A stretch of 32,500 nt of DNA from Acropora yongei (Eukaryota; Cnidaria; Anthozoa; Scleractinia; Acroporidae): assembly GCA_014634225.1 (NCBI GenBank), contig BLFN01000027.1, positions 1,165,315 through 1,197,814 on the forward strand, in the 5' to 3' direction. Of the stretch, positions 4,449 through 7,400 are shown piece after piece. Both the position numbers and the translations under genes were made by a program. The first letter of the stretch is position 1. Every line of letters begins with the position of its first letter. Below the pieces are notes generated by a model. That model saw only the letters and a program-made list of their open reading frames with translations. It was not told the origin of the DNA and ran no database searches.

Positions 4449-7400
4449 GTAAGATACTTACGTTTATGGCCTATTATGACGCACGTAAAAGTCAAGTTAA
4501 TTTGTAATCGTTCGGATTCTCATTATGTTAGCATTTGAATTTGTTTTCTGGTAGTAAAGAAATTGAAAGAGACAGTGGAGTGTTATTTGACGAGAGCTGA
4601 GAACAATATTTTTCGAAAAGTAACTTTTCTTTCGACTTGACGAAAATGATTATTCAGTTGTTGTCAAGGTTTCACTTTGGGAAATTTCAAAGCAAAATCA
4701 ATTTTTATTATTTGGTTGAGTTGAGAGATGACAAGAATTTTTTACGATGCGAAGCACCTTTATGGCGTTAATTAAGGATAAGACTCGCTGACAAAATAAA
4801 GCAAAGATTACTCATAAATAAGTCATGAACAAAAGTCATCGAGATCACAAAAGAACTAACGAAAAGTGGAATGGTAGGTTAACTCCGGAATCGGAATTGC
4901 AAGGATTCGCTTCAACAGAAATATCCACGGTGCATTTTAGTTTCCGTGTATTTAGGTTGACTTTCGCTTTTCTTAAAATGAAATTTCCCAGTTTGAAAGC
5001 GAGAGATGACAGAATACTGTCTTGAGAGGAGTTTAAAAGAGTGCTTAGTCTTAAGTAAAGTCGAAACATACAGAAAAAGGAGTATCCCACACTGATAAGT
5101 ATTAACTGCAAATCAATCAAGCAACTGAACATTACTCGGTGATTTGGTAAATATTTCTCACAAGTGCATTAGACATGAGTTTCAAGCAAAGTGGCTTTCC
5201 AATCAGTTTCCTTTTAAATCATCTCATTGTCACAAACTGCCTTATTTTGTTTTTACCGAAAAATTTGCTTCATTGAACTTTCAGCTCTTTCTTTCCCATA
5301 GAATTCTCGGAATTAAAATTATTGCTTACCACCTCATTCAAATTATAAATTGTTTTCCATTCATTTCTCGTCTGTCGTTTTTCTGTTTTGAAAGTTTTTG
5401 AAAACGACAAAGAATGACAAGAATCTTACAAGAGTATATATATTTCGGGAGGAGTAATTAGTTCTAAAATGTCGGCATAACGCATCAGAAAAACTTCCCA
5501 GTAGAAGATCTTCCACGTATAAAATCTCACGAATCTTGTGTAAGACTGAACGTTTATTGAACTTTCAAACTTCACATTCAGTCCTTTTTCTCTTGAGGCG
5601 TTTAAATAAGTCTTCGTCGGTTTTGGTGAAAGTCATTATCACAAAAAAAACCAAAACAAGCGAGCACAATTTTTGATGATTATTTTCGAGCATTTCACAC
5701 AATTCTCGCATCTGTTATCCTGTTGATCGTTGCTCGCATTTCTTTCTCCTGGTACCTGCCATTGATGACCTCTTTATGTGGTTGGAGGTAACAGTTTTCC
5801 TCTTAGCACTGGTGCAGGTTTTTCTTTTCATAGAATACCCGGAGGACTGTAGGAGATTCCGTCAATTAAGAAAAAAATTAACTGAAATTATTCTCCGATT
5901 TCCTAGAAAGCTTCCAAGTGCTGAGTCACTTAGTTATGGTGGTTATTCTTACTGGTCAAACTGCAGCGGATTTTGAGCTCTCTTTTTGAGTCCATTACGT
6001 GATACCTGTATTTGAGATAGTGGCTGAAAACAGTTCAAGTGAAAGCAATGCTTTTTATAACATCCACGTTGTCTTTGTTTCAATTTCTTATCTTGCCAAG
6101 GAATGAAAAACCTAACGTGACATGTAAATTCAGCCTGAGACAAATTATTGTAACACTTGCTGAACATTTCAAAACAAAAACTCTTTGGTTCTTGTAATTT
6201 CCTTAAGAGTGAGATGGTAACAGTTGATCCCCTTTTAACCCCTAAGGATGGAAGGAGTGTGAACGCTGAAGAATCATCTCTCTCAATTGTCATTGTAACT
6301 ATTTAATTTCTACATTTCAGATTACGTGGCTTTTCTTCGCCGTAGCCCTAGATCACTGGTCCTAAGAATATGTGTTCTGCTCTGTTCGATTTCTTGGGGA
6401 AATGCACAGAACGCTCAATATGCAGGGAAACCGCACATTATTATGATCGTTGCTGATGATTTAGTAAGTGTCGTTATTGGTTGGCTGACCAGCCTCCTGT
6501 ATTTTCCTTTATATTTTGCCTTATTGTGTGCGTTAACTTAAGACAGGCTCGATAAAGTCGTCATGAAAAAAACTCAGTTTTATTATGGTTTTGTTCATGA
6601 AATACTTTCGTAATTTTAGGGTTGGGATGACGTCAGTTTTCACGGCTCGCCCCAAATCCCCACGCCGACATTGGATGGTCTGGCAAACTCGGGAGTAATT
6701 CTCAATAATTATTACGTGTCACCAATGGACACTCCGTCGAGAGCGGCTTTCATGACAGGAAAATATGCCCTCAATTTAGGTAATATTTGTTCTTGTCGTT
6801 TACAATTATCAACAAATCTGAACTATCACATTCTCTCTTTCCGTTTGCACATGCGACTTTCGTCGCCTCAACTCAATACAATTTTTGTAGCTCTAGATTC
6901 GTTCGTGGAAACTGCACAATTTCAGCGAGATTTGTCAGTGTTTGGAACTTGCCCGATTATACATAACCAACTGGTCTGCCTCGTGACGATTGAGATTCTT
7001 AACCTGTTGAGTTTATTTGTTCCAAATGGCCCTCAAAAGCCCGAGAAGGGAGGAGTCACATTCAGATTCTCCATAGTGCGTTTGCTCAACCGAGTCTCCC
7101 TGAGGCACTCTAAAGCTTGACCGGTTTTTGTCCAGTTTTGCACAGAAATGCAAGGTGATATACGAATGAGACTATGTCTCATGCGCGGTATATCACTTCC
7201 CTGTACTCGCCCATACACTCACAAAGTGCAACCCCAACACCAGGAACTTCATACCCTACTCTTCTCGAATAGTGTGTGGGTTCTTTAAAGTCCCACATTG
7301 AACTTATAAACATGAAAGGTATTAGTGAGACGGAGCCTACGGTTTATAGTCCTTATCCGAGACGACTTGAAATTCTAACCATATGCGGGTGTAATTGCAG

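Follow-up and report, generated by a model that had tools for sequence, protein, structure and literature searches.

The 32,500-nucleotide stretch of the Acropora yongei genome analysed here (assembly GCA_014634225.1, contig BLFN01000027.1, positions 1,165,315 to 1,197,814; hereafter the window) contains an eight-exon gene on the + strand (4436-12871, 8.4 kb of genomic DNA) for an ARSB-like protein of 1080 amino acids. At the formylglycine (FGly) position, where sulfatases have Cys, this protein has Asp, and it has lost a second catalytic residue. It groups with cnidarian homologues that all lack the Cys. The likely explanation is that an ancient enzyme has become a binding protein, not that the gene is broken.

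The Pfam Sulfatase domain covers residues 42-362 of the window protein (E 3.6e-53; 181.3 bits against a cut-off of 25). Sulfatase is the only Pfam domain in the protein that scores above its cut-off. A type I phosphodiesterase model, which we take to belong to the same superfamily, falls below. Among solved structures, the closest match is human arylsulfatase B (1fsu; E 4.3e-120), which ranks top both in sequence and in predicted fold. The Sulfatase domain, the match to 1fsu and a tree position beside cnidarian ARSB/I/J-type proteins place the protein, by descent, in the ARSB/I/J clade of the sulfatase superfamily. It differs from the enzymes of that clade (PF00884; 1fsu) at two catalytic positions: Asp replaces the formylglycine Cys, and Gln stands where they have His147. 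Its stalk of about 500 residues and its transmembrane helix fall outside the alignment to 1fsu.

The first sulfatase signature has 13 residues and spans 6722-6760. An earlier note on this DNA had reported Asp at the FGly position, and the codon GAC is read directly at 6728-6730 in exon 3, where sulfatases have a Cys codon. The location given in that note (6723-6740) lies inside the signature but covers its first half only. In the updated catalytic-site pattern (PMC5066984, available part), 12 of the 13 positions match and the [CS] position alone fails. The second signature pattern from the same source is unmatched anywhere in the window protein and breaks at Gln145. The note's description of the signature as otherwise intact therefore holds for the first signature but not for the second. 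In the SulfAtlas alignment of 4058 sequences, as given in the available part of PMC5066984, only Cys or Ser occurs at the FGly position, and Ser is found in two eukaryotic sequences.

For human ARSB, the accessible portion of the sulfamidase structure paper PMC4014121 lists FGly91, the metal ligands D53, D54, D300 and N301, the formylglycine contacts R95, K145 and H147, and the sulfate contacts H242 and K318. Eight of these ten residues are retained in the window. The two that are changed are FGly91, which is Asp89, and H147, which is Gln145. The four putative Ca ligands and the sulfate contacts are present as D50, D51, D296, N297, H233 and K318. Active formylglycine-dependent S1 sulfatases have Cys (Ser in anaerobic prokaryotes) as the precursor of the nucleophile and His at the position of ARSB H147, and the window protein has neither.

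In the S1 mechanism, one hydroxyl of hydrated formylglycine attacks the sulfate and the second is needed for release; formylglycine itself derives from a Cys or a Ser, which FGE converts in aerobes and another enzyme in anaerobes (PMC10154612, available part). The His equivalent to ARSB H147 is proposed, with some doubt, as the base that deprotonates the second formylglycine hydroxyl so that the sulfate leaves (PMC4014121 and PMC10154612, same portions). An Asp at the FGly position neither accepts nor releases sulfate in the normal way. A Ser could take up sulfate but not release it, since release needs both the second formylglycine hydroxyl and the His. Ser is not expected to be matured to formylglycine in animals. 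Read from the sequence, both losses in the window protein fall on the formylglycine chemistry, and the predicted Ca and sulfate contacts stay. As the earlier note also expected from the loss of the formylglycine Cys, the window protein is very probably without sulfatase turnover.

Three homologue searches, with candidate and length limits applied, give 183 distinct proteins among the matches listed (the best 120 of 562, the best 120 of 634 and 54 of 54). Fragments without the formylglycine column are excluded from the residue counts. Among the matches listed, the 207 aligned stretches contain 191 Cys, six Asp, five Ser and five of another letter in this column; some of the last five are short or poorly aligned. 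His is found in 164 of the 173 Cys-bearing stretches that cover both columns. The six Asp proteins are closely related to the window protein: five are coral or coral-like (P0001-P0005, including Oculina patagonica P0003 and Porites evermanni P0005) and one is from the anemone Actinia tenebrosa (P0013), and all six have Gln at the His position. Two of the coral or coral-like records, P0001 (1103 amino acids on a 3898-nt contig, 25 member sequences) and P0004 (1074 amino acids on 4249 nt, 248 members), may represent spliced RNA; their contigs are far shorter than the 8.4-kb gene. Four of the five Ser stretches belong to Hydra vulgaris (P0034), two Hydra-like proteins (P0032 and P0036) and the gorgonian Paramuricea clavata (P0059). 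The alignment of cnidarian homologues at this column, which the earlier note had proposed, thus yields six proteins with Asp and Gln and four clade members with Ser.

The pattern of losses is not uniform across the clade. The four Ca ligands, R93, K143, H233 and K318 are all present in the window protein and in its five coral or coral-like homologues. Actinia has Ser in place of H233. The Hydra-type members have Ala, Ser or Gly at the His position and Lys for R93, and they are missing either one of the pair D296 and N297 (P0036) or both (P0032 and P0034). Paramuricea retains the His. The fifth Ser stretch is found in the first of two tandem domains of a protein from the wasp Ampulex compressa (P0029, residues 22-399), whose second domain has Cys.

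Trees were built from 44 and 33 rows: the window was joined to 42 and 32 proteins picked by hand from the 183, and in the 44-row tree one sponge protein contributed two domains. In the 44-row tree, the 11 Cys-less proteins, the window included, form one clade with 100/99 support. The adjoining clade consists of seven cnidarian ARSB/I/J-type rows (99/95) and includes Stylophora, Montipora, Actinia and Nematostella. Six of the seven have Cys. The seventh, P0122 (592 residues, on a contig of up to 6669 nt), has Gly, with GTQSR for CTPSR in an otherwise Cys-bearing cnidarian set; it is a separate loss of the Cys, and the His and the other listed residues are retained. When the ten trait columns are masked, the same clade is recovered from the 33 rows, again at 100/99. 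Five Cys-bearing proteins of the sister set (Stylophora P0039, Montipora P0041, Actinia P0048, Nematostella P0123 and P0142) are 50.9-55.1% identical to the window domain, and all five have both Cys and His.

Within the Cys-less clade, the Hydra-type proteins branch first, followed by the gorgonian, the anemone and the corals. With bilaterian proteins as the outgroup, all rows can be explained by a minimum of three changes: Ser replaces Cys at the base, Asp replaces Ser in hexacorals, and Gly replaces Cys in P0122. This fewest-change reconstruction on the tree suggests that Asp most likely replaced Ser in hexacorals. The GAC codon stands in place of TGC, as the earlier note put it, when the window is compared with active enzymes, but within the clade the tree suggests a step from Ser to Asp. 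The gene model behind the gorgonian row is partial and chimeric, and a tree grouping the other ten without this row is not rejected (p-AU 0.073). With the gorgonian placed outside the other ten, Ser still precedes Asp. Judging from the sequences compared, the duplicate of the ARSB/I/J-type enzyme probably arose in or before the cnidarian ancestor.

The gene model has GT/AG borders at all seven introns, a coding length of 3243 nt including the stop, and no internal stops. The least certain part is exon 1, where the N-terminus of the window protein is unlike that of the homologue P0001. The features of the gene are as follows.

4436..4448, + strand: exon 1, encoding MSSP plus 1 nt, with a GT donor and a fitting frame; the least certain exon.
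6321..6463, + strand: exon 2, a hydrophobic signal-peptide-like stretch, then the segment with the first two metal ligands D50 and D51.
6620..6779, + strand: exon 3, which carries the first sulfatase signature.
6728..6730, + strand: codon GAC at the FGly position, Asp89 (human ARSB 91), from direct reading and homologue alignment.
7486..7598, + strand: exon 4, whose last residue is Lys143 (ARSB K145).
8677..8823, + strand: exon 5, from the gene model.
8680..8682, + strand: codon CAG, Gln145 for ARSB His147, the second catalytic loss (residue table in the available part of PMC4014121).
9358..9571, + strand: exon 6, with His233 (ARSB H242) retained.
9721..9951, + strand: exon 7, with D296, N297 and K318 retained.
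10650..12871, + strand: exon 8, the remainder of the sulfatase domain, the stalk, the transmembrane helix and the stop.
10868..11236, + strand: C-terminal lobe, residues 414-536, holding 18 of the 23 clade-invariant positions.
11249..12736, + strand: stalk, residues 541-1036, rich in S, K, T, P and A by composition and predicted mostly disordered from the model of the homologue P0001.
12020..12046, + strand: stalk motif PEILDIIDE, residues 798-806, from comparison of anthozoan-type tails.
12098..12124, + strand: stalk motif PKIFDIIDE, residues 824-832, from the same comparison.
12371..12490, + strand: predicted membrane-proximal four-strand module, residues 915-954 (in the P0001 model, strands at 938-977 and block pLDDT 84-88 over 941-980).
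12719..12721, + strand: Cys1031, the sole Cys in the stalk, from the sequence.
12752..12853, + strand: transmembrane block, residues 1042-1075, from identity in 24 of 25 anthozoan-type sequences and from hydropathy.

The sulfatase domain of the window protein is 87.0-93.8% identical to those of the five coral or coral-like homologues. In the N-lobe, coral and Actinia members of the clade are 71.7-73.5% identical (three pairs), and the Cys-bearing paralogues are 64.1-66.0% identical (three pairs). In the C-lobe, the corresponding values are 67.5-68.3% and 39.3-44.2%. Between Oculina and Porites, the N- and C-lobes are 90.9% and 91.9% identical; between the Cys-bearing proteins of Stylophora and Montipora, they are 86.4% and 62.1% identical. 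A deep split separates the corals compared. The C-lobe is thus far less conserved between species in the Cys-bearing sister set than in the window clade. There are 23 clade-invariant positions (common to at most three of 21 Cys-bearing rows), 18 in residues 420-514 and five in residues 113-302; the gorgonian row ends before the C-lobe. This distribution suggests that constraint may have moved away from the active site and onto the C-terminal lobe.

The stalk is 496 residues long. Anthozoan-type tails were grouped by likeness, and among the matches listed the transmembrane block of 34 residues is identical in 24 of 25 anthozoan-type sequences. A motif of the form PxI(L/F)DIIDE occurs in two copies in the stalk (12020-12124) and is present in most anthozoan-type relatives though the adjacent stalk varies; it is perhaps a binding motif. 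Together with the loss at Gln145, the clade-wide absence of Cys, the Ser step and the age of the clade, the stalk and the near-invariant transmembrane helix extend what the earlier note had described.

The 11 of 11 clade members without Cys among the matches listed, the intact gene and the high identity fit a pseudoenzyme. The reading that we hold somewhat the likelier, as far as sequence comparison can take it, is a cell-surface pseudoenzyme that acts by binding or assembly and not by turnover. It would be a type I single-pass protein: a signal peptide is followed by an ARSB-like ectodomain that does not turn over sulfate esters, then by a long and flexible stalk bearing a small beta module close to the membrane, and finally by a transmembrane helix that hardly varies and a very short tail. 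Its ancestor would have been a duplicate of an ARSB/I/J-type enzyme in which the formylglycine Cys first became Ser; in hexacorals Ser would then have become Asp, together with loss of the sulfate-releasing His. The fold, and above all the C-terminal lobe, would contact an extracellular partner, most likely in a binding role, and the transmembrane helix would set place or assembly in the membrane. The hexacoral Asp89 would most likely substitute for formylglycine as a ligand of the Ca site and keep the pocket folded.

Several observations weigh against this reading. In the gorgonian protein P0059, represented by one partial gene model, Ser is the sole change among the listed residues, and the His is still in place. 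The paralogue comparison spans different species, and the orthology of the paralogues is unproven. The invariant positions come from a set of 11 rows in which closely related corals predominate, and the variability of the C-lobe among the Cys-bearing rows makes such positions easier to find there. The spacing of small residues in the transmembrane core is not above that of shuffled sequences (share of 20,000 at or above the observed value: 0.97 for i/i+4 and 0.73 for i/i+7), and helix-helix packing therefore gains no positive support from it.

A sulfated-glycan lectin, in which the former sulfate-binding subsite (the Ca site with R93, K143, H233 and K318) would hold glycosaminoglycan or mucin-type sulfate uncleaved as an adhesion or matrix receptor, is possible but rather unlikely. 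Retention of these residues and of the four Ca ligands by the window protein and its five coral or coral-like homologues favours it, but Actinia lacks H233, the Hydra-type members have Lys for R93 and lack one or both of D296 and N297, and Asp89 would introduce negative charge next to where the sulfate is expected to sit. Intact-pocket binding as a family-wide role is ruled out by the pocket residues lost in the Hydra-type members and Actinia. The earlier note's pseudoenzyme interpretation is retained, but pocket binding as the role of the whole family is not. A sequence from turnover through capture to mimicry is a more doubtful proposal: the ancestral Ser would have taken up sulfate once without being able to release it, and Asp, in replacing Ser, would imitate the sulfated residue permanently. 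The order of Cys, Ser and Asp comes from parsimony, trapping from the two-step mechanism (PMC10154612, available part), and the mimicry itself is conjectural. Trapping by a Ser variant draws on that mechanism, on general knowledge and on the PDB titles of ARSA C69S; no Ser mutants of arylsulfatase A are found in the accessible portion of PMC4014121. Equally doubtful is the corollary that in hexacorals the protein would be held for good in the occupied state of a sulfatase, a fixed conformation that partners would read through the C-lobe and the transmembrane helix.

It is improbable that the protein regulates active sulfatases or their substrates, by sequestering substrate or by pairing with Cys-bearing paralogues, as heparanase 2 does for heparanase 1. 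Cys-bearing paralogues are present in Stylophora, Montipora, Actinia and Nematostella, and glycosaminoglycan biology offers a precedent in heparanase 2 (PMC12406646, available part), but contact with the paralogues is conjecture. A changed enzyme, in which Asp or Ser with Ca would support another hydrolase or transferase activity, is very improbable. The Ca ligands and leaving-group residues are retained in corals; against this, the nucleophile varies in the clade (Asp or Ser), 10 of 11 members have Gln, Ala, Ser or Gly in place of the His, and the Hydra-type members have lost Ca ligands. The substitution itself is all that speaks for a sequencing error or a decaying pseudogene, which is hardly credible: Asp occurs in six homologous proteins from other records, all eight exons are open, and domain identity to five of the homologues is high. 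Sequencing error, decay and splice artefact are rejected on the homologues and the open exons, in agreement with the earlier note, which had judged that this was not ordinary decay.

The fold family of heparanase 2 (HPSE2) is unrelated to sulfatases. HPSE2 is an inactive relative of a glycosaminoglycan-degrading enzyme that has been kept in evolution, and it serves here as a works-like comparison only; it binds heparan sulfate and inhibits HPSE1 (PMC12406646, available part). A transmembrane stalk is not mentioned for HPSE2 in that part of the source. Sulfatase homologues thought to be inactive are already in print, so the kind is known. Those of Planctomycetes and Lentisphaerae are natural and, like the window protein, suggested to be inactive (PMC5066984, available part). 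They are bacterial and have lost the catalytic Arg but not the nucleophile, whereas the window protein has lost the nucleophile. The available part of PMC12960093, on a coral larval proteome, mentions an 'arylsulfatase-B' protein, which may or may not be the window protein. In the open-access papers searched, no description of a membrane-anchored, Cys-less cnidarian sulfatase clade with a hexacoral Asp is found, which is not proof of absence.

Elsewhere in the window, a 22-nt inverted repeat lies in intron 4 (7771-8039; 95% complementary, arms 225 nt apart) and may be a small mobile element. An apparently unspliced open stretch of 240 residues (2230-2952, + strand) lies upstream of the sulfatase gene and has no Pfam match to E 0.1. 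A 261-residue open stretch (23174-23959, + strand) has no Pfam match or solved relative to E 0.1. At 30830-32212 on the + strand, two open stretches with an Ephrin_rec_like domain (E 1.8e-12) and a CUB domain (E 7.3e-17) are probably exons of one downstream gene, presumably SCUBE-like. The window has no Rfam match at gathering thresholds.

If the proposal is true, a dead sulfatase has been retained at the cell surface of cnidarians from their common ancestor onwards, and its transmembrane helix is better conserved than its enzyme fold. Proteins labelled 'arylsulfatase' in coral data may then not be enzymes. The family would be a membrane-anchored addition to the known pseudoenzymes of glycosaminoglycan biology, and it would provide a way to test how sulfated matrix is read or organised by the cells of cnidarians.
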